From assembly GCF_013302895.1 (NCBI RefSeq), contig NZ_VJOK01000001.1:477357-527597 (forward strand): a stretch of DNA of 50,241 bases, given 5' to 3'. The DNA is from Streptomyces albus subsp. chlorinus (GTDB lineage: Bacteria; Actinomycetota; Actinomycetes; Streptomycetales; Streptomycetaceae). Below the pieces are notes generated by a model. It was not told where the DNA came from, did no database searches, and worked only from the letters and a program-made list of their open reading frames with translations. The position numbers were made by a program, and so were the translations under genes. This document shows, in pieces, positions 27,457-37,698 of the stretch; position 1 is the stretch's first letter; every line of letters begins with the position of its first letter.

Positions 27457-28938
27457 ATGCCTGCTGTGGATGAGCGGCCGTCCGTGGAGACCGGCGGTGC
27501 CGCCAGCACCGGTCTCTACACCTACGACCTCGCCCCGACGAAGAAGGAAGGGCGCCGCTGGGGCGCCTACAACGTCTTCACCCTCTGGGCCAACGACGTG
27601 CACAGCCTCGGGAACTACGCGTTCGCCATCGGCCTGTTCGCGCTTGGCCTGAACATCTGGGGCATCCTGGCGGCCTTCGCGCTCGCCTCCGTGCTGCTCT
27701 TCCTCCTGCTGACCCTCTCCGGGGTCATGGGCCACAAGACCGGCGTCCCCTTCCCGGTCATGAGCCGGATCGCGTTCGGCATCAAGGGCGCGAAGGTACC
27801 GGCCGGTGTCCGGGGTGCCGTCGCCATCGCCTGGTTCGGCATCCAGACCTATCTGGCCTCCTCCGTGCTCACCGCCCTTCTCACGGCGATGTTCCCCGGC
27901 CTGCGCGGCCTGGACTCCAACTCCCTGCTCGGCCAGTCGACGCTCGGCTGGATCACCTTCCTGGCGCTGTGGGCCCTCCAGGTGCTCATCGTCAGTTACG
28001 GGATGCAGATGATCCGGCGCTACATGGCCTTCGCGGCGCCCACCACGCTGCTCACCATGTGCGCGCTCGCGGTCTGGATGTTCTTCCGCGCCGACGGCTC
28101 GGTCTCGCTGTCCGTGGACGAACCGCTCACCGGCGGGGCGATGTGGCTGCAGATCCTGCAGGGCGCCGCGCTGTGGGTGGTGGTCTACGGGACCTTCGTG
28201 CTGAACTTCTGCGATTTCACCCGCTCCGCCAGGAGCCGCGGCGCCATCGTCCGCGGCAACGTGATCGGCATTCCGCTGAACATGCTCTTCTTCGCGGTCA
28301 TCGTGGCGGTCCTCAGCGGCGCCCAGTTCACACTGGACGGCCGCGTCATCACCAGCCCGACGGACATCGTCAGGACCATTCCGAACATGTTCCTGCTGGC
28401 CCTCGCCTCACTGGCCCTCATCGCCCTGACGGTGGCGGTGAACCTACTGGCCAACTTCGTCGCGCCCATCTACGCGCTGGTGGACCTGTTCCCCCGCCGG
28501 CTGAACTTCCGCAGGGCGGGCGTGGTGAGCGCCGTCCTCGGCCTGGTCATCCTGCCCTGGAACCTCTACAACAGCCCGGTCGTGGTCAACTACTTCCTCG
28601 GCGGACTCGGCGCCCTGCTCGGCCCCCTCTTCGGAGTGATCATGGCCGACTACTGGCTGCTGCGCAGGTCCCGGGTGAACGTCCCCGACCTCTACACCGA
28701 GGACGCGCACGGCGAGTACCACTACCGCCGGGGCTACAACCCCAGGGCCGTCGCGGCGTTCGCCCCCAGCGCCGCCGCCGCGGTCGTCCTCGCCCTGGTG
28801 CCCTTCTTCCACGCCGTGGCCGGATTCTCCTGGTTCATCGGCGCCCTCCTCGCCGCCGTGCTCTACGCGGTCATCGCGGACCGCACCGCTTCCTTCCAGG
28901 ACGTGGACGGCGAGGCCATCGCCGTCGCCGCCGAGTGA
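27457..28938 (+). CDS. NCS1-family nucleobase/hydantoin/allantoin transporter
   Basis: The 493-residue protein has about 12 membrane helices. The family start region LYTYDLAPTKKEGRRWGAYNVFTLWANDVHSLGNYAFAIG includes the Trp-Asn region that binds substrates in Mhp1-like transporters. PFPVMSRIAFG and FVLNFCDFTRSA are also typical. It is a sodium or proton symporter for purines, pyrimidines, allantoin or hydantoins. The racemase gene begins 23 nt downstream, so the pair form an operon and point to a chiral five-membered amide such as a hydantoin or allantoin (inference). A promoter and an IclR-like site precede the gene. Confidence 0.93.
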   Translation: MPAVDERPSVETGGAASTGLYTYDLAPTKKEGRRWGAYNVFTLWANDVHSLGNYAFAIGLFALGLNIWGILAAFALASVLLFLLLTLSGVMGHKTGVPFPVMSRIAFGIKGAKVPAGVRGAVAIAWFGIQTYLASSVLTALLTAMFPGLRGLDSNSLLGQSTLGWITFLALWALQVLIVSYGMQMIRRYMAFAAPTTLLTMCALAVWMFFRADGSVSLSVDEPLTGGAMWLQILQGAALWVVVYGTFVLNFCDFTRSARSRGAIVRGNVIGIPLNMLFFAVIVAVLSGAQFTLDGRVITSPTDIVRTIPNMFLLALASLALIALTVAVNLLANFVAPIYALVDLFPRRLNFRRAGVVSAVLGLVILPWNLYNSPVVVNYFLGGLGALLGPLFGVIMADYWLLRRSRVNVPDLYTEDAHGEYHYRRGYNPRAVAAFAPSAAAAVVLALVPFFHAVAGFSWFIGALLAAVLYAVIADRTASFQDVDGEAIAVAAE

Positions 28939-28961
28939 ACCGACCAGCGGAAGGCCGCACC

Positions 28962-29687
28962 ATGCGCATCCTCGTCGTCAATGTGAACACCACGCGGTCC
29001 CTCACCGACGCGATCGGCCGGCAGGCGGCCGACGCGGCGGCGCCCGGCACCGAGATCGTTCCGCTGACCCCGTCCTTCGGCGCGGAGTCCGTCGAGGGCA
29101 ACTACGAGAGCTATCTGGCCGCCGTCGCCGTGATGGAAGCCGTCCGCGCCCACCCGGGGCCGTTCGACGCGGTGATCCAGGCCGGGTACGGCGAACACGG
29201 CCGGGAGGGGCTGCAGGAGCTGCTCGACGTCCCCGTCGTCGACATCACCGAGGCCGCCGCGAGCACCGCGCAGTTCCTCGGCCGCAGCTACTCCGTCGTC
29301 ACCAGCCTCGACCGTACGGTCCCCCTGATCGAGGAGCGCCTCCACGTGGCCGGGCTGAGTGCCCGCTGCGCCTCCGTGCGCGCCAGCGGACTGGCCGTGC
29401 TCGACCTGGAGCGGGACGAGAAGGCCGCCGTGGACGCCATCGCCGAACAGGCCGCCCGCGCGGTGGAGGAGGACCGCGCGGAGGTGATCTGCCTGGGCTG
29501 CGGTGGCATGTCCGGGCTGACCGAGCGCGTCGTCGCCCGTACCGGGGTGCCCGTGGTCGACGGTGTGACGGCCGCCGTGAAGATCGCCGAGTCCCTCGTC
29601 GGCCTCGGCCTGTCCACGTCCAAGGTGCGCACCTACGCCCCGCCCCGGCCCAAGAAGATCCTCAACTGGCCTCCGCCCCTGGGGTGA
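28962..29687 (+). CDS. Asp/Glu/hydantoin racemase family, first Cys replaced
   Basis: ATG 28962 opens MRILVVNVNTTRSLTD, typical of hydantoin racemases; the length, 241 residues, also fits. Two Cys normally act as the acid/base pair. The second is present (Cys180 in ICLGCGGMSGL). The first motif reads VIQAGYGEHG, with Gly75 where hydantoin racemases have Cys. Arylmalonate decarboxylase also lacks the first Cys. The protein may therefore be a decarboxylase-, isomerase- or allantoin-racemase-like relative rather than a plain hydantoin racemase. It is co-transcribed with the NCS1 transporter and ends before a 21-bp hairpin. Confidence 0.88.
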   Translation: MRILVVNVNTTRSLTDAIGRQAADAAAPGTEIVPLTPSFGAESVEGNYESYLAAVAVMEAVRAHPGPFDAVIQAGYGEHGREGLQELLDVPVVDITEAAASTAQFLGRSYSVVTSLDRTVPLIEERLHVAGLSARCASVRASGLAVLDLERDEKAAVDAIAEQAARAVEEDRAEVICLGCGGMSGLTERVVARTGVPVVDGVTAAVKIAESLVGLGLSTSKVRTYAPPRPKKILNWPPPLG

Positions 29688-29769
29688 CGAAGGGCCGACG
29701 GGCTCCCCGGCGGTGGGCCGGGGGGGCGCTCTTTTCGGACATCGACCGCGCCTTTCGGTGGGCTCGGGA

Positions 29770-29816: not shown

Positions 29817-29828
29817 TGGTGTAGACCA
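29817..29828. promoter_or_regulatory. DasR-type (dre-like) site 1
   Basis: TGGTGTAGACCA differs at one position from the dre core TGGTCTAGACCA recognised by DasR, the GntR-family N-acetylglucosamine regulator of streptomycetes. It abuts the hairpin at 29770-29814. Confidence 0.5.
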
Positions 29829-29956
29829 ATAAACGCGCCCTCAGCGTAGCGGCCCGTGTCAAGGCCTGATCCGCCGCTCTTCTTTGCACGTCGGGAGGCC
29901 GGGAAGGGTGACGCGAACCCATCGCCCGTGCCGTGGGCGGGAGTTGGCATTCGATT

Positions 29957-29968
29957 TGGTCTAGTCCA
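29957..29968. promoter_or_regulatory. DasR-type (dre-like) site 2
   Basis: TGGTCTAGTCCA differs at one position from the dre core. It lies 140 bp from site 1 and about 350 bp upstream of the five-gene oxygenase operon. Confidence 0.5.
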
Positions 29969-30072: not shown

Positions 30073-30320
30073 GGTCGCAACCCGACACGCACCCGTGGCC
30101 CGAGAGCGGCCGCGGACCTCCGTGCCGTCCACGGCGGCGGGGAGCCGCCACCCCGCACGTCGCCTGGCCGCCGTCACCCGCGCACAGCTCCGCCGGACAG
30201 CCACCAAGCGGGCCCCGACCGCCCGCGCATCCGCTCACACGCATCCGCGCGATCACCCGTTCGTTCAGACTGCCGCTCCCCGGCCGAGCCAGGGCGACAG
30301 TGAGCACCTGGAGTACCGTC

Positions 30321-31394
30321 ATGGCGACCTCAGACCGCTATCTCCACCGAGCCGCATCGGACATCCCCTATTTCAGTGCCGACGGCGACACCTACCTCGC
30401 CCGCACGGCGCTGCGCGACCTCCGCAAGACGCGTCCCCTGCGGGTGCTGTCCGAGGAGGACTTCTCCTTCTGGCAGACCTGGGGCTACATCGTCGTCAAG
30501 GAGGCGGTACCCGCCTCGGCCGCCCGGCGCCTGCTGGACTTCGCCTGGGAGTTCCAGGGCCTCGACCCGGACCGCCCGGACACCTGGTACGAGGAGCGCC
30601 GGTTCCGCTCCGACCTCGAACGGGAACTGCACGTCTACGGCTTCGTCGAGGCGTACCACCACCAGCTCATCTGGGACAGCCGCCAGACGCAGCGGGTCTA
30701 CGACGCGTTCGCCGACGTGTGGGACTGCGAAGAGCTGTGGGTCACCCTGGACCGGCTCAACCTCAACCCGCCCAACGTCCGCAACCGCGCCAGGTCCCTG
30801 ATCGGGCACCGGGAGCGCGGCTTCGACATCGAGCTGCACTGGGACATCGACACCTCGCTCGGCATACCGCCCCAGCGCGTCCAGGGCATCATCGCGCTCA
30901 ACGACACCGAACCCGAGCTGGGCGGCTTCCAGTGCTGCCCCGAGCTGTTCCGGCGGTTCGACAGGTGGAAGGCCCTCCAGCCCGAGGACCGCGACCCGAT
31001 CCGGCCCGCGGTCGACCGGGAGGAGATGCCCGTCGTACGGCCCGAGCTGGAGGCCGGCGACCTGCTCATCTGGAACGGCCTGCTGGCGCACGGGGTGGCT
31101 CCCAACACCTCCCGGAAGGGCGTGCGCGCGGTCCAGTACCTGTCGATGATGCCGGCGCTGGAGACCCACCGGACGCTGCGGCGGTCGCGGATCGACTCCT
31201 GGCGCCGGCTGAGCACCCCCGACTGGAACGCGACGCTGCTCGGCGACGCCAGGAAGCACGAGTCGCTGCGCTACGGGCCCGCCGAACTGACCGGGCTGGG
31301 CGCCAGGCTGCTGGGGCTCGACTCCTGGCACGGGCAGGACGGCGCCGACCAGGCCGAGGTCACCGGGGATGAGACATGCGCCGTATCTGTCTGA
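30321..31394 (+). CDS. PhyH-type Fe(II)/2-oxoglutarate oxygenase
   Basis: ATG 30321 has GGAG 7 nt upstream; the GTG at 30300 is less likely. The 357-residue cytoplasmic protein belongs to the phytanoyl-CoA dioxygenase superfamily. His173 and Asp175 (IELHWDID) and distal His257 (LLAHGVAPNTS) would bind iron; Arg269 (VRAVQY) would bind 2-oxoglutarate. EPELGGFQCCPELFRRF and EAGDLLIWNG are typical. It probably hydroxylates or otherwise oxidises a small molecule or amino acid. It is the first of five overlapping genes, ending 19 nt inside the next one. The decarboxylase homologue in the operon suggests a basic amino acid or its product as substrate (inference). Confidence 0.92.
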   Translation: MATSDRYLHRAASDIPYFSADGDTYLARTALRDLRKTRPLRVLSEEDFSFWQTWGYIVVKEAVPASAARRLLDFAWEFQGLDPDRPDTWYEERRFRSDLERELHVYGFVEAYHHQLIWDSRQTQRVYDAFADVWDCEELWVTLDRLNLNPPNVRNRARSLIGHRERGFDIELHWDIDTSLGIPPQRVQGIIALNDTEPELGGFQCCPELFRRFDRWKALQPEDRDPIRPAVDREEMPVVRPELEAGDLLIWNGLLAHGVAPNTSRKGVRAVQYLSMMPALETHRTLRRSRIDSWRRLSTPDWNATLLGDARKHESLRYGPAELTGLGARLLGLDSWHGQDGADQAEVTGDETCAVSV

Positions 31395-32704
31395 CGCTGC
31401 CCACCAACAGGCCCTGTGCGCACACGATCACGGCCGTCGGTGAGGAGGCGGCCCACGCCGTCGAGCACTTCGACGCCGAGGTCCATCTGCTGGTCCTCGA
31501 CTCCTGCGCACCGGCGGTCCGCGCCGAGCACGCCGGGGCCGTACGGCGGCTCCCCGCCTCGTCCCGCCTCACGGTGCACCACCTCGACGAGGCACGGCAG
31601 CGGGATTTCCTCCAGCGGGTCGTCGAGCGGGCCGGGAGCACCAAGCCGGAACTGCTGCTGGACCTGCTGCTTCCGGACGGACTCTCCTACGGGGCCTGCA
31701 CCGACCGGGCGTTCCTGGCCGCCGCCGCGCTGGGCTGCGAGTCGGTCCACCGCAGGGACTCCGACAGCCGGTACCAGACCGTGGAGGGCCGCCCGGTCTT
31801 CCCCGTCCACCACGAGCTGCGTTCGCTCGGCAAGCGCGCCGCCGACGCCGCGGCGGGCGTGAGCGAGACGGCGCTGGCGGCACAGTACGCGCAGCGCCCG
31901 GTCGCGATGGTGGGCAGCTCCTTCGTGGGCGAGCTGTCCGTGGACATCGGGGAGATCCGGGCGGCCGACCCGGAGATCTACCGGCAGGTCGTCGGCCTGT
32001 GGGCGCCCGCGCACTGGCCCGCCGAGCGGAAACGGGGGCTTGCCGAGGAGTCGTTCCGCGGGGCGGGTACGCGGCCGTTCGAGCGGGACCACTCGGTACT
32101 GACGCTGGTGGACCCGATGCGCGTGGACATGTGCAACATCAGCTTCCACGGGGTCCAGGAAAGAGTGCCGCTGCCGCCCGCGCGGGACACCATCGGCAGC
32201 GACTACTTCCTGCTGCACCTGGTGCGCGAGGCCCGGTTGCCGGGCGTCCTGCACAACCGGAACGTGGTCAACTACTACACCGCCGAGCGCAGGACGGACG
32301 CCGGTTTCCTGGCCTACCAGCTGCGCTTCGCCAAGTTCCTCCTCTCGATGCTCCACTTCCACTCCGTCTACGCCGGGATGCGCGAGGCCGGTGACACGCT
32401 GCTGGACGAGCTGGGACAGGTCCGCGCCCCGGCCGTCGCCGCGCTGGCCAGGGAGAGCGCCCGGCTCGACCAGCGGGAGAACGTGGAGCGGCTCGACGTC
32501 CTCGGTTCCGCCTACCGGCGGCTGGGCGGGCGGTACGCGGTCTTCGCCGACCGGCTCGACGCCCGCCGGGAGCGGCTGCTCGCCGAAGCCCGCGGCGACA
32601 TCGAGGACTTCGCGCTGCTGACCGAGGCATGGGGCGGGCTGGTGGCCGCCGCCGCGGACACGCCCCTCGATCCGTACGGCCGGCCGGGGACGGTGGGCCG
32701 GTGA
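31376..32704 (+). CDS. Uncharacterised GT-A-like protein (DUF6271-like)
   Basis: This 442-residue soluble protein is read from ATG 31376, inside the oxygenase gene. The N-terminus MRRICLTLPTNRPCAHTITA and HLLVLDS look like the start of a Rossmann-type nucleotide-sugar fold. GLSYGACTDRAFLAAAALGCE followed by HRRDSDSRY gives a DxD-like pair (Asp128, Asp130), as used by GT-A glycosyltransferases to hold metal and nucleotide sugar. VDMCNISFHGVQERVP and DTIGSDYFLLHLVREA follow. I associate it from memory with the actinobacterial family DUF6271; its reaction is unknown to me. Its GTGA junction couples it to the decarboxylase gene. Confidence 0.78.
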   Translation: MRRICLTLPTNRPCAHTITAVGEEAAHAVEHFDAEVHLLVLDSCAPAVRAEHAGAVRRLPASSRLTVHHLDEARQRDFLQRVVERAGSTKPELLLDLLLPDGLSYGACTDRAFLAAAALGCESVHRRDSDSRYQTVEGRPVFPVHHELRSLGKRAADAAAGVSETALAAQYAQRPVAMVGSSFVGELSVDIGEIRAADPEIYRQVVGLWAPAHWPAERKRGLAEESFRGAGTRPFERDHSVLTLVDPMRVDMCNISFHGVQERVPLPPARDTIGSDYFLLHLVREARLPGVLHNRNVVNYYTAERRTDAGFLAYQLRFAKFLLSMLHFHSVYAGMREAGDTLLDELGQVRAPAVAALARESARLDQRENVERLDVLGSAYRRLGGRYAVFADRLDARRERLLAEARGDIEDFALLTEAWGGLVAAAADTPLDPYGRPGTVGR

Positions 32705-33972
32705 CGAGCACGGGAACGGTGCCGGCCCCGGCGGCGGCGGACACCGCGCGGCTCGGCCCGTACCTGGCCGCTGCGCTCGCCGCGGCCGACGAGGACCGGA
32801 TCGTCTACGACCTGGCCGGCATCGGGGAGCGCTACGCGGCCCTGTGCCGCCAACTGCCGAGGGCCCGGGTCAGGTTCGCCATGAAGGCGTGCCCGGTCGA
32901 CGACGTACTCACCCTTCTCGCGCACCGGGGCGCCGGGATCGACGCGGCGAGCCCCGGCGAGGCGGAGCGGGCGCTGCGGGCGGGGATCCCCGCCGGCCGG
33001 ATGCACTACGGCAACACCGTCAAGTCCGACCAGGACATCGCCGCCGCCCACCGGCTGGGCATCCGGGACTTCGCCACCGACAGCCGGGAGGACGTGGCCG
33101 CCCTCGCCGCCCACGCTCCCGGCGCCCGCGTCTTCTGCCGGGTGACGACCAGCGGCGACGGCGCCGTGTGGGCGCTCGGGGAGAAGTTCGGGTGCCCGCC
33201 CGGCGAGGCGGTGCGGGTGCTGGAGCGGGCGCGCCAAGCGGGCCTGGTGCCCGCCGGGCTGTCCGTGCACGTCGGCTCCCAGCAGCTGACCGCCCGGGCC
33301 TGGCACGACGCGCTGGCGGTGCTGGCGGAGGTCCTGCGCGCCCTGATGCGGCGCGGGATCCGTCCGGAATACGTCAACCTCGGGGGCGGCCTGCCGGCAC
33401 TGGGCTACCTCGGTGACGACGGACGGCCGCTGGAGCCGCCCCTCGACACGATCTTCGCGGTGATCCGGGACGGCATGGCCGGCCTGCGCCGGATCGCGGG
33501 CGGCTCCCTGGGGTTCGTCGTCGAACCGGGCCGCCACCTCGTCGCCGACCACGGAGCGATCCGTGCCCACGTCGCCCGCCTCGCGCGGCGGAGGATGCCG
33601 GACGGCGGGCGCCGGTACTGGCTCTATCTCAGCTGCGGCAAGTTCAACGGCCTCTACGAGATGGACGACGTGCGCTACCGGCTGGTGTTCCCCGGCCGCA
33701 CCGGCCCCTATGTCCCGGCGGTGGTCGCGGGCCCCACCTGCGACAGTGCCGACACCTGCTCCCCCGCGCGGGGGCTCGTCCCGGTGCCGGAGACCCTGGC
33801 GTCGGGCGACCCGGTGTGGGTGCTGTCCTGCGGCGCGTACGCGACCAGCTACATGACCCGCGGCTTCAACGGCATCGCCCCGCTCCCCTGCTTCGTGACG
33901 GGGCCCCAAGGACCGCGGCCGGGGCGTCGGGCCACCGGGCGGGCGGCGGACGAGGACAGCCGCCATGGCTGA
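32701..33972 (+). CDS. PLP-dependent fold-III decarboxylase, ornithine/DAP type
   Basis: The GTG at 32701 overlaps the previous stop by 4 nt. The 423-residue protein has the alanine-racemase-like barrel. Lys62 in RFAMKACP is the PLP lysine, and LSVHVGSQ, YVNLGGGLP and FVVEPGRHLVADHG are the usual phosphate-binding and active-site strands. The second domain has Cys347-Asp348 in GPTCDSADT and GAYATSYMTRGFNG. This is the pattern of eukaryotic-type ornithine, lysine, arginine and diaminopimelate decarboxylases, active as dimers. It should remove CO2 from a basic amino acid, perhaps one modified by the oxygenase. It overlaps the GNAT gene by 8 nt. Confidence 0.92.
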   Translation: MTSTGTVPAPAAADTARLGPYLAAALAAADEDRIVYDLAGIGERYAALCRQLPRARVRFAMKACPVDDVLTLLAHRGAGIDAASPGEAERALRAGIPAGRMHYGNTVKSDQDIAAAHRLGIRDFATDSREDVAALAAHAPGARVFCRVTTSGDGAVWALGEKFGCPPGEAVRVLERARQAGLVPAGLSVHVGSQQLTARAWHDALAVLAEVLRALMRRGIRPEYVNLGGGLPALGYLGDDGRPLEPPLDTIFAVIRDGMAGLRRIAGGSLGFVVEPGRHLVADHGAIRAHVARLARRRMPDGGRRYWLYLSCGKFNGLYEMDDVRYRLVFPGRTGPYVPAVVAGPTCDSADTCSPARGLVPVPETLASGDPVWVLSCGAYATSYMTRGFNGIAPLPCFVTGPQGPRPGRRATGRAADEDSRHG

Positions 33973-34588
33973 GGCCGTGCGCGTACGCCGCATCGCCCCC
34001 GGCGACTGGGACGCCATCGTGGAACTGGAGCGCGACGCCTACGCCCCGCTCGGCCTGTCCGAGGGGCGGGCGGCGCTGCAGGACAGGGCGTCCGTCTCGC
34101 CGGGCACGTGTTTCCTGCTGGACGTCGGCTCGCGCTGCGCGGGCTACGCGCTCGCCCTGCCCTGCCCGCCCTTCCACTACCCGGAACTGGGACGGAGGGA
34201 GGGCGCCGGGCCCATGCGGTCGGGGCGCGGCGGCGGGCCGGGGCGGGAAGAGGGCGCCGGGTTCCGCACCGGGAACCTCCACCTGCACGACATCGTCGTC
34301 GCACGGCCCCTGCGCCGCCGGGGGCTCGCCCAGGTGCTGCTGCGCCACCTCGGCCACGCGGCCCGGGCACGTGGGGACGCACGCCTTTCGCTGATCGCCG
34401 TCGGCGGCAGCGCCGGATTCTGGTCCGCGCGCGGCTTCGTCCCCCACCCGCGGGTGCTGCCCCCCGGCAGCGGCTACGGCACCGACGCGGTGTACATGTC
34501 CAAACCGGTGCCGCCCGGCCGTACCGGACCGCCCGCGACGGGAAGCGCTCCGCAACGCCGACCGTCCCCGCACCACGAGGTGAGCTGA
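33965..34588 (+). CDS. GNAT-family N-acetyltransferase
   Basis: The 207-residue protein has the GNAT fold. RIAPGDWDAIVELERDAY forms the first helix, and the acetyl-CoA pyrophosphate loop is RRRGLAQVLL (about residues 116-125). A late strand/loop is GFWSARGFVPHP. An insertion rich in Gly, Arg and Glu (about 78-98) separates two strands. It likely acetylates an amine, which would suit the polyamine-like product of the preceding decarboxylase (inference). It overlaps the decarboxylase gene by 8 nt and the exporter gene by one base. Confidence 0.88.
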   Translation: MAEAVRVRRIAPGDWDAIVELERDAYAPLGLSEGRAALQDRASVSPGTCFLLDVGSRCAGYALALPCPPFHYPELGRREGAGPMRSGRGGGPGREEGAGFRTGNLHLHDIVVARPLRRRGLAQVLLRHLGHAARARGDARLSLIAVGGSAGFWSARGFVPHPRVLPPGSGYGTDAVYMSKPVPPGRTGPPATGSAPQRRPSPHHEVS

Positions 34589-35811
34589 TGCACCAGTCCC
34601 GCGACCACGACGTCCGCGCCGGCGACGGCGGCCCCACCCCGGCACCGGCCCGCCGTGCCTTCCTCCGCGGCCAGTTGGCCATCGCCGCGCTGTTCTGCTC
34701 CCTCGGGTTCCAGTACGCCACCTGGGCCTCGCGCATCCCGGCCCTCAAGAAGGACCTCGGGCTGACAGCCGCGGAGGTGGGCGTCCTGCTGATGGCCGCG
34801 GGAGTCGGTGCCGCGGTCTCGTTCCCCCTGGTGGCGATGCTGATGCGGCGGCTGGGCTCGCGGCGGCTCGCCCTCGCCTCCCACCTGGCCCTGGCGCTGC
34901 TGCTCCTCGCCCTGGCGGCGGCGCCGGACTACCCGGTGGCGCTGCTGGTGATGTGCGTGGACGGGGTGTTCGTCGGATGCCTCAACGTCGCGATGAACGC
35001 CCAGGGCGCCGCGCTGGAGACGGGACACGGCCGCAACGCCATGGCGAGGCTGCACGCCACCTTCAGCGGCGGCTCACTGCTGGCGGCCCTGCTCGCCTCC
35101 GTCACGACGCTGGCGACTCCCTCGGTCACGGCCCACTTCGGCGTGGCCGCCGCCCTCCTCCTGCTGCTGGGCGCGTACGCGCGCACCGGGCTGCTCGCGG
35201 ACGAACCGGCCGCGCGCGAGGCGGAGGCGGGGAGCAAGAAGGGCCGCCGGTGGGCCGTCCCGTCCCGTATGGCGCTGTGGATGTGCTGCGCCATGGTGTT
35301 CGGCACCATTGCCGAGGGCGCCATGAACGACTGGTCCACCCTCTACATGAAGGAGGTAGCCAAGGCATCTGCCGAGGTGGCGCCCCTGGGGATCGCCGTA
35401 GTGTCGGGAATGATGGTGCTCGCCCGCCTCTTCGCCGACGGCTGGCGCGGCAGATGGGGGGACGGGCGCGTCGTCCTTCTCGGCAGCGCGCTGGCCGGTG
35501 CCGGGCTCGCCTTCGCCCTGGTGAGCGGCGGCGTGGTGCCGGCCCTTCTCGGCTTCGCCTGTGTCGGACTGGGGATCGCCGCCGTCACCCCGTGCGTCTA
35601 CGCCGCCGCGGCCCGGCTCGGCTCGGACTCGCTGACCCTCGTCGCCGCCATGGGGACGACCGGACTGCTGGCCGGCCCGCCGCTCATCGGCTTCCTCGCG
35701 AGCGCGAGCAGTCTGGCCTGGGGCATGGCCGCGGTCGCGGCGTCGGCCGCCGTGGTGTCCCTGTGCAGCACCAGGATCCGGTGGACACCGGTGGTCGCGG
35801 CGACGAACTGA
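34588..35811 (+). CDS. MFS exporter of the five-gene operon
   Basis: The ATG at 34588 shares its A with the previous TGA. The 407-residue membrane protein has 12 predicted helices. It resembles the YbjJ/FucP-like branch: FQYATWASRIPALKKDLGLTAAEVGVLLMAAGVGAAVSFPL, DGVFVGCLNVAMNAQG and GTIAEGAMNDWSTLYM. The long cytoplasmic loop (about 210-225) is basic. Placed last in a biosynthetic-looking operon, it most likely exports the product, though sugar-like uptake cannot be excluded for this branch. A hairpin at 35852-35868 ends the operon. Confidence 0.9.
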   Translation: MHQSRDHDVRAGDGGPTPAPARRAFLRGQLAIAALFCSLGFQYATWASRIPALKKDLGLTAAEVGVLLMAAGVGAAVSFPLVAMLMRRLGSRRLALASHLALALLLLALAAAPDYPVALLVMCVDGVFVGCLNVAMNAQGAALETGHGRNAMARLHATFSGGSLLAALLASVTTLATPSVTAHFGVAAALLLLLGAYARTGLLADEPAAREAEAGSKKGRRWAVPSRMALWMCCAMVFGTIAEGAMNDWSTLYMKEVAKASAEVAPLGIAVVSGMMVLARLFADGWRGRWGDGRVVLLGSALAGAGLAFALVSGGVVPALLGFACVGLGIAAVTPCVYAAAARLGSDSLTLVAAMGTTGLLAGPPLIGFLASASSLAWGMAAVAASAAVVSLCSTRIRWTPVVAATN

Positions 35812-35851
35812 GAGCGTGGCCGGGGCCGGGGCGAGCCCAGTGGGTGGCGGA

Positions 35852-35868
35852 CCCGGCCGGCGGCCGGG
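35852..35868 (+). terminator. Hairpin terminator of the five-gene operon
   Basis: CCCGGCC (35852-35858) pairs with GGCCGGG (35862-35868) around a 3-nt loop, 41 nt after the exporter stop. Confidence 0.6.
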
Positions 35869-36330: not shown

Positions 36331-36477
36331 GACACCACGGTGCGGCCAGTCGTCGGCCACCGCATCTCGGCGTAGGGGTAGCCAGCCACCCGAATGAGGT
36401 CACACAAGCCTCAGCCTTAACGGACCGCGAATACCCGGCGTAGCGTGGAGAGCACAGACTCTCTGGCGGGGGTAGAC

Positions 36478-37698
36478 ATGAGCGACCACATCGGTGCGCG
36501 CATCGCCAAGCTGCGCGACTTCCGAGGCGAGATGACTCAAGAGCAACTGGCCGAGCAGGCGGGCGTGTCCGTGGACACAATTCGGAAGCTGGAGCAAGGC
36601 CGCCGGACCACCGCCCGGATCGGTACTCTGCGAAAGATCGCGTCCGCCTTGGACGTGGAGCTGGAGCGACTTCTGGGGCAGCCCACCGTGACGCAGCACT
36701 CCCAGACTGACGACGGAGGGCTCCTTGCCCTCCGCGACGCCATCCAGGACGTGGACGCGCTTCCAGGCGTCTTGGCGGACACCGCGTTGAACGAGGCCCC
36801 CGACGCGGACGAGTGGATGGACGCGGTCCGTGAGGCGACCTCCCTGTACTGGGCGGGTGCCTACAGCACTCTGGCCGGACGGCTCCCTCTCATTCTCCGC
36901 GACGGCAACCGGCTAGTTCGGGAGCTGACGGGCACGGGCGCCGAGAAAGCGTGGGCACAGCTGGCGCTCTCGTACCAGCTGGCGGCGTCTCTCTCGACTC
37001 AAGCTGGTCATGCCTCCTGGGCGTTCGACGCCGTCCGAAAACAACTGGAGGCGGCCGAGCGTGCCTCCGATCCGCTGATGTCTGGCATGGGCGTGAGCAC
37101 ACTGTCCTGGGTCCTGCTGAGACAGGGGCGCTGGGAACAGGCCCAGCAAGTGGCCGAGCGAAAAGCCGAAGCGCTGGAGCCATCATTCAGCAGAGCCAGG
37201 CCCATCGAATTCGCCGTGTTCGGCAACCTCCTCGTCGCCGCTGCTACGCCAGCCGCGCGCCGAGACCGGCACGACGAAGCTCGTGGATACCTGAACCTCG
37301 CTGAAGCTGCTGCGGTGCGCTCCGGACCCGTCCGGGCTTACGGCACAGCGTTCTCGACCGTGGACGTGCTGACGCAGCAGGTGAACGTGGCCATTGCAGG
37401 TGAGCAGGCTGACCACGCCTATGCGCTGGAGGTGGCAGCTCGCGTAGACCGTTCCGCGATCTCCCGCCCTGTACACAGCGCCGCTCATCGGGTGGACGTT
37501 TCCCATGCCCAGTACGAGACAGGGGACTGGGACGGAGCGCTGGAAACACTGCTGGAGGTCGAGCGGGACCAGCCGGAGTGGATCAGGTACCAGACCCTCG
37601 CCGCGGCCACGGTGCGAGAGATGCTGGAGGCTGAGCGACGCCGCTCAACACCGCTCCGCGGGCTGGCCGCCCGCCTGGGTGTTGACCCTCTCCTATGA
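36478..37698 (+). CDS. XRE-type regulator with TPR-like C-terminal domain
   Basis: The 406-residue protein starts MSDHIGARIAKLRDFRGEMT. An XRE helix-turn-helix spans about 6-62 (MTQEQLAEQAGVSVDTIRKLEQGRR). The remaining 340 residues are all-helical repeats of TPR type (AWAQLALSYQLAASLSTQAG, LLRQGRWEQAQQVAER, HRVDVSHAQYETGDWDGALETLLEVE). This design is common for actinomycete regulators that sense peptides or partner proteins. Base composition is visibly lower in GC than the neighbours (many GCT, GAA and CTC mixtures), suggesting transfer. A palindromic operator candidate lies between it and the operon starting at 37932. TAGCGT at 36441-36446 is a likely -10. Confidence 0.9.
   Translation: MSDHIGARIAKLRDFRGEMTQEQLAEQAGVSVDTIRKLEQGRRTTARIGTLRKIASALDVELERLLGQPTVTQHSQTDDGGLLALRDAIQDVDALPGVLADTALNEAPDADEWMDAVREATSLYWAGAYSTLAGRLPLILRDGNRLVRELTGTGAEKAWAQLALSYQLAASLSTQAGHASWAFDAVRKQLEAAERASDPLMSGMGVSTLSWVLLRQGRWEQAQQVAERKAEALEPSFSRARPIEFAVFGNLLVAAATPAARRDRHDEARGYLNLAEAAAVRSGPVRAYGTAFSTVDVLTQQVNVAIAGEQADHAYALEVAARVDRSAISRPVHSAAHRVDVSHAQYETGDWDGALETLLEVERDQPEWIRYQTLAAATVREMLEAERRRSTPLRGLAARLGVDPLL

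Follow-up and report, generated by a model that had tools for sequence, protein, structure and literature searches.

A conserved five-gene operon in Streptomyces with a candidate DasR operator and a possible route to a sugar-modified, N-acylated amine

Introduction

What do five overlapping genes that recur together in Streptomyces genomes make, and what signal turns them on? The question is raised by a 50,241-nucleotide stretch (the window) of contig NZ_VJOK01000001.1 from the 7.6-Mb genome of Streptomyces albus subsp. chlorinus, in which genes A to E occupy positions 30321 to 35811 of the plus strand. An earlier note on this DNA described the genes as a complete route that hydroxylates and decarboxylates a basic amino acid, acylates and perhaps glycosylates it, and exports the product. 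The reading developed here, held tentatively and at slightly less than an even chance, is that a five-gene operon controlled by N-acetylglucosamine (GlcNAc) converts a basic amino acid into a small amine, sugar-modified and N-acylated, that is then exported. It draws on observations of gene order, the active-site residues of A and C, an operator core for the regulator DasR with a -35-like hexamer, a glycoside hydrolase family 3 (GH3) gene in relatives and an exchange of modules.

Results

Gene A (30321 to 31394) is predicted to encode an Fe(II)/2-oxoglutarate oxygenase of the PhyH family with intact HxD...H and Arg residues, and gene B (31376 to 32704) a DUF6271 protein with an RRDxD motif and a predicted GT-A fold like that of glycosyltransferase family 75 (GT75), the nucleoside diphosphate (NDP)-pyranose mutase-like proteins. 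Gene C (32701 to 33972, GTG start) encodes a putative pyridoxal 5'-phosphate (PLP)-dependent fold III decarboxylase resembling ornithine/lysine decarboxylases, gene D (33965 to 34588) a GNAT N-acyltransferase and gene E (34588 to 35811) an MFS transporter. The open reading frames, all on the plus strand, overlap by 19, 4, 8 and 1 nucleotides, the same values that the earlier note had given. Aligned orthologues place the start of A at its ATG, though an in-frame GTG lies at 30300. The note gave a span of 30321 to 35868; the block stops with the stop codon at 35811. Its family calls of oxygenase, fold III decarboxylase, GNAT and exporter agree with matches to PhyH, Orn_Arg_deC_N, GNAT and MFS models; it had no DasR operator, no GH3 partner and no GT75-like fold for B, which it called uncharacterized.

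Conservation was assessed in two samples that share species: the 80 loci most similar to B among 138 found in a species-level genome collection, and 150 genomes sampled evenly from the window's genus. The first was surveyed for genes not kept together, the outcome that the earlier note had named as telling against its view; the order A-B-C-D-E on one strand is retained in 76 of the 80 loci, which come from Streptomyces, Actinacidiphila, Streptantibioticus and Actinokineospora. The four exceptions are L020 and L073, in which the available sequence ends inside the block, L047, in which the MFS gene is broken and inverted, and L075, which has an alternative module instead of C-D-E. The five genes are a conserved unit. 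DUF6271 is present in 51 of the 150 genus genomes and in five of 396 genomes across the phylum, all five belonging to the window's genus, and the closest database relatives of B with a named source are from Streptomyces. More distant DUF6271 relatives (P0148, P0154, P0160 and P0176) are named as Paenibacillus and Clostridium/Clostridiales, and the family is therefore wider than Actinomycetota.

The product of A matches PhyH with 42 bits (cut-off, 22). H173, D175, H257 and R269 are kept in all 21 aligned sequences, in line with the intact metal ligands that had been claimed, and the Pfam match together with the His-x-Asp...His facial triad supports assignment to the Fe(II)/2-oxoglutarate oxygenases. 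The profile of A found no solved relative better than E 0.09, and that of D none at E 0.1. The product of C matches Orn_Arg_deC_N with 128 bits, and K62, H190, E275, D322, C347, D348 and Y380 are invariant wherever covered across 79 aligned sequences, including the Lys62 and Cys347 singled out previously. The PLP lysine, catalytic cysteine and Asp residues, whose role in binding the omega-amine we take to be that in ornithine decarboxylase structures, identify C as a probable fold III basic amino acid decarboxylase. Diaminopimelate decarboxylase (LysA) was considered for C and rejected, the score being 129.9 bits against a TIGR01048 cut-off of 297.9.

Gene A directly precedes B in 49 of the 51 genus loci with DUF6271; the other two, L113 and L114, have a distant DUF6271 without A. 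Two versions of the locus exist. Type 1 (A-B-C-D-E) comprises 36 genus loci, window included, of which 33 match all five genes (among them L153, with a short match to C, and L157, where E is cut by a contig end) and three are interrupted earlier by contig ends. Type 2 comprises 13 genus loci with no match to C, D or E. All 13 have a divergently oriented gene set upstream, for an aminoacyl carrier-protein ligase, a small acyl-carrier protein and a phosphopantetheinyl transferase, and a free-standing condensation domain downstream of B. The ligase, tested on L075, matches NCBIfam PRK07080 with 100 bits, under the cut-off of 357, and an MFS gene of a different kind follows in that locus. Type 2 accounts for 14 of the 134 B sequences placed in a tree, and these form one clade (support, 1.0), whose position inside or beside type 1 is poorly supported (0.61). 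Because C-D-E is replaced by an aminoacylation/condensation module in 13 of the 49 loci, A and B are the core and the remaining genes an exchangeable finishing module; what had been called a complete route is one of two alternative finishes. Both modules would end by acylating an amine.

Variation around these two versions was also seen. L153, from the same genome as L118, has C reduced to an 83-residue match with A, B, D and E kept, a natural partial loss of C. Two type 1 loci, L143 and L158, have a stretch resembling a phosphopantetheinyl transferase (42 to 44% identity over 116 amino acids to the type 2 one) downstream of E, about 4.5 kb past the start of B. The distant DUF6271 of L114 (27% identity; L114:398-11912) lies in a different biosynthetic context for the family, with a family 2 glycosyltransferase, DegT aminotransferases, a histidine-phosphatase protein, an asparagine-synthase protein and a "possible lysine decarboxylase" (LOG-type) protein.

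Upstream of A, the window contains the core of a DasR operator (dre), TGGTCTAGTCCA, at 29957 to 29968 (exact), a second dre-like site, TGGTGTAGACCA, at 29817 to 29828 (one mismatch), and a -35-like hexamer, TTGGCA, at 29944 to 29949 on the plus strand, in register with the TTGAC of relatives. The part of PMC4398421 that deals with these operators gives the dre consensus as A(G/C)TGGTCTAGACCA(G/C)T and describes DasR binding, in electrophoretic mobility shift assays, to a dre that precedes scr5239 and has the core TGGTCTAGTCCA. The window core departs from the consensus core at one base and matches that of scr5239 exactly, which makes the window promoter region a candidate member of the DasR regulon. 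The two window sites give four matches, each being counted on both strands, where 0.36 were expected and one of 100 shuffles reached four.

A first scan, with the standard 16-mer only, found at least 11 matching positions in 91 of 129 upstream regions (9.2 expected from shuffles) and revealed the variant core TGGTCTAGTCCA, which was then added. The second scan took cores TGGTCTAGACCA and TGGTCTAGTCCA on either strand, with at most one mismatch, within 600 bp of A, and covered 79 of the 80 loci (L007, with <150 bp upstream, was left out). A site was present in 59 of the 79 (53 exact), compared with 24 of 1,948 control tiles (10 exact); in the genus sample, the figures were 22 of 36 type 1 loci versus 15 of 877 tiles and 13 of 13 type 2 loci (none exact) versus 0 of 340. 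In 55 of the 62 sites listed, TTGAC starts 13 to 14 nucleotides ahead of the core, the window's site being among the seven that differ, so the operator would lie just downstream of a -35-like hexamer. L045 has TGGTCTAGTCCA twice in tandem about 110 bp upstream of A, with three bases between copies.

Control by a carbon and nitrogen regulator, together with the spread of the block over many genus genomes, would also be compatible with general physiology. C might make a plain diamine (putrescine, cadaverine or agmatine) and D acetylate it for polyamine or amino-sugar overflow, with A and B modifying something else, so that the block would be a DasR-controlled stress or nitrogen-disposal operon. 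The nearest solved relatives of C are ordinary lysine/ornithine decarboxylases whose motif it keeps, and MFS and GNAT proteins are frequent in detoxification. We nevertheless consider such an operon distinctly unlikely: A and B occur without C-D-E in 13 of the 49 genus loci, where carrier-protein and condensation enzymes stand instead, an arrangement suited to specialized metabolism, and presence in 51 of 150 genomes is patchy.

A GH3 gene lies upstream of A in 56 of the 75 loci with enough flank, divergent in 42 and codirectional in 14, and in the genus sample it adjoins 26 of the 36 type 1 loci and none of the 13 type 2 loci. The L003 copy matches PF00933, and its best NCBIfam model is beta-N-acetylhexosaminidase (184.5 bits; cut-off, 207). 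Where GH3 is divergent, TTGGTNTAGACCAA lies between it and A in 13 of 43 loci. Chance synteny was the first suspicion and was set aside: linkage is favored because the next commonest flanking genes are found in just 12 of the 80 loci and because two GH3 lineages are found in two orientations, although hitch-hiking of GH3 could still account for the association. The divergent GH3 proteins form one clade (53 sequences; support, 0.9). The window genome has a das-type locus of its own at 5.11 Mb, where genes for a DasR homologue, a sugar-binding protein and a GH3 lie within 6 kb; 19 of the 26 codirectional GH3 proteins cluster with the GH3 encoded there (support, 0.995), and the association therefore probably arose more than once. 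Among the 36 type 1 loci, 12 have a DasR-like regulator gene nearby, and six genomes have a divergent DasR-like gene followed by a sugar-binding protein, two permeases and GH3 leading straight into A-E; in those six, the sugar-binding protein has no other homologue of >41% identity.

In the window, no tblastn match to GH3 was found at E 1e-5. A 19-mer (CATCGACCGCGCCTTTCGG as read on the plus strand; 29740 to 29758, minus strand) near the second operator is identical to the leader and start codon of GH3 in L028, L041 and L057, and on this relic the gene was most likely lost in the window lineage.

An extra GH3 could alternatively be a self-protecting duplicate of a target, the product of the block inhibiting beta-N-acetylhexosaminidases or chitinases. 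The block GH3 may indeed be an additional paralogue beside the das-type-locus GH3 (G011: C2 and C14), and GH3 proteins at least 60% identical to the L003 copy occur in 19 of 51 genomes with DUF6271 versus 2 of 99 without (Fisher p 1e-8, a guide only, because the loci are related). The catalytic motif KHFPG...DSH is present in all 83 GH3 proteins examined, which suits a protective copy; with the DasR control of SCO6032 recorded in the pertinent part of PMC4398421, the intact motif fits plain GlcNAc salvage equally. GH3 is missing from 10 of the 36 type 1 loci, the window's among them, and self-protection is very improbable.

The product of B matches DUF6271 with 760 bits. The DxD pointed out in the earlier note is D128-S-D130, within an R-R-D-x-D motif whose two Arg and two Asp residues are invariant in 52 of 52 members. 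A GT75-like GT-A fold is predicted for B by modeling. No member of the 52 matched PF03214 (RGP family) up to E 1, and hhalign of DUF6271 with RGP in local, low-mact and global modes gave no credible alignment, so residue correspondences were drawn by hand. D128, D130 and H293 of B, all invariant in the 52, were matched in this way, not by superposition, to Asp109, Asp111 and His287. Column 174, nearest by hand alignment to Arg159, is R in 19 and K in 10 of the close 29 sequences and mixed in the distant 23; at position 273, the hand-aligned counterpart of Arg257, 49 of the 52 have I, L or V. B is not assigned to GT75.

An alternative is that B is a genuine mutase, interconverting the pyranose and furanose forms of an NDP-sugar as MtdL and Hyg20 do, a glycosyltransferase encoded elsewhere using the furanosyl donor and the product carrying a furanose. 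Arg159, the acceptor/nucleophile that is autoglycosylated in MtdL, is conserved in GT75 (PMC9937993) and present in six of six RGP proteins aligned. In the hand alignment it has no invariant Arg counterpart in B, Arg257 falls on Ile, Leu or Val in most B sequences and the block has no other glycosyltransferase; a mutase is rather unlikely. A bolder extension of the transferase reading is quite improbable. In it, B would be a new kind of sugar transferase that evolved from the arginine-autoglycosylating GT75 fold, with the acceptor arginine now a free small-molecule substrate glycosylated at its guanidine (or hydroxyl) after hydroxylation by A. A and B would then found genus-wide, chitin-triggered glycosyl-amino-acid metabolites, finished by decarboxylation/acetylation or by carrier-bound aminoacylation.

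Genes on either side of the block were considered as pathway members. At 27457 to 29687, directly upstream of the dre, an NCS1 nucleobase/allantoin-type permease gene overlaps an Asp/Glu/hydantoin racemase gene on the same strand, and at 36445 to 37698, 3' of the block, lies an HTH_3 regulator gene with a TPR-like C-terminal region. Both the permease/racemase pair and the regulator were rejected because no relative (E 1e-10) stands beside the block in the 80 loci.

Discussion

In the preferred reading, that of a GlcNAc-controlled operon for a modified amine, GlcNAc or chitin products would raise glucosamine-6-phosphate, DasR would leave its operator and the operon would be expressed. A would hydroxylate ornithine, lysine or arginine, and B would glycosylate the new hydroxyl, or another nucleophile, from an NDP-sugar, perhaps uridine diphosphate (UDP)-GlcNAc. 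C would remove the carboxyl group, D would acetylate an amine and E would export the product; step order, substrate, sugar and product are all proposals. In type 2 clusters, A and B may make the same kind of core, which the condensation domain would join to a carrier-bound amino acid. GH3 might supply GlcNAc, or cleave a beta-linked product on reuptake.

Several points weigh against this reading. To our knowledge, no metabolite, substrate or enzyme activity has been described for any of the A to E proteins. The AlphaFold model of A, built with 21 close orthologues aligned, had a predicted local distance difference test (pLDDT) score of 34, and no fold is claimed for it. C could supply a separate amine instead of acting on the product of A and B. 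For B, hhalign of the 52 DUF6271 sequences with six GT75/RGP proteins gave a probability of 5.7%, which is not significant, and neither Arg159 nor Arg257 of MtdL has an invariant counterpart in the hand alignment. All 13 type 2 loci and 10 of the 36 type 1 loci, the window's among them, lack GH3, which is therefore not essential to A and B chemistry. Actinokineospora loci L064, L076 and L080 have the block with neither GH3 nor such a dre. Finally, in 14 of the 36 type 1 genus loci no dre with one mismatch or fewer lies within 600 bp of A. Five of these 14 carry an exact site roughly 5 kb upstream, ahead of das-type transporter genes; in two others it is at about -650 to -670, and in L165 and L166 at about -2.5 to -2.7 kb. 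Two more have a one-mismatch site further off only, and three have none, one of these being L157 with just 197 bp of upstream DNA.

Literature searches aimed at the gene set found no described pathway with these five genes, as the earlier note had supposed, part of the queries being weak tests. DUF6271 was named in no paper of the literature searched. Among candidates, a "glucosamine kinase" cluster paper (PMC6520443) concerns another gene set and, in its accessible part, mentions no dioxygenase or decarboxylase, and the kirromycin, cupin-survey and Penicillium-genome papers have other subjects by title and abstract. The component families are known; what is new, as far as the searches reach, is their combination, the reading of DUF6271 as GT75-like, the pair of finishing modules and the link to DasR. 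About a quarter of the sampled genus genomes (36 of 150) carry a biosynthetic operon that the searched literature does not describe, and 13 more have the sister version. We know of no hallmark gene usual for cluster finders in the type 1 block. The DasR operator offers a ready switch and indicates when the block should be expressed, so that GlcNAc addition or a dasR deletion could be used to search for the product. DUF6271 gains a fold prediction, a likely type of donor and genomic contexts of two kinds.

Comparison with known systems

The best solved relatives of C are lysine/ornithine decarboxylases, namely the Selenomonas type 5gjm (E 3e-37) and 2plj (E 1e-35), with which it has the PLP Lys, the catalytic Cys and the CD(S/G)xD motif in common; C differs from them in sitting in a tailoring operon. 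For A and B together, the closest functional parallel lies in collagen modification by the lysyl hydroxylase/glycosyltransferase LH3 and by COLGALT1, where a 2-oxoglutarate oxygenase is paired with a Mn-dependent GT-A transferase that glycosylates the new hydroxyl of hydroxylysine. These proteins would work like A and B without being relatives, and both stand low in the Foldseek list of B; their substrate is protein bound, their families are other ones and neither decarboxylation nor export is involved.

The predicted fold of B is like that of MtdL, Hyg20 and plant UAM-RGP proteins of GT75 (PMC9937993) over 311 residues, reaching the C-terminal helices. The GT75 metal site (DxD and His), the Arg that follows this His and the catalytic base, an Asp, can be matched to B by hand, whereas the invariant R126-R127 pair before the DxD sets B apart and the acceptor Arg159 and Arg257 are unmatched.

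Regulation finds its nearest parallel in the SCO6032-SCO6033 intergenic region of Streptomyces coelicolor. In the entries of PMC4398421 for this region, DasR is present in 4 of 10 ChIP-on-chip (chromatin immunoprecipitation on microarray) columns, dre cttggtctagtccatt is placed at -154 and -278 and SCO6032 is a beta-N-acetylhexosaminidase, the dre thus lying between the hexosaminidase gene and the next gene. L018 and L019 also have cttggtctagtccatt upstream of A, at about 279 bp, the same distance as the S. coelicolor site as recorded there, and both loci have a divergent GH3. The window differs in having lost GH3, and those entries name just the hexosaminidase; SCO6033 onward would correspond to the A-E block.

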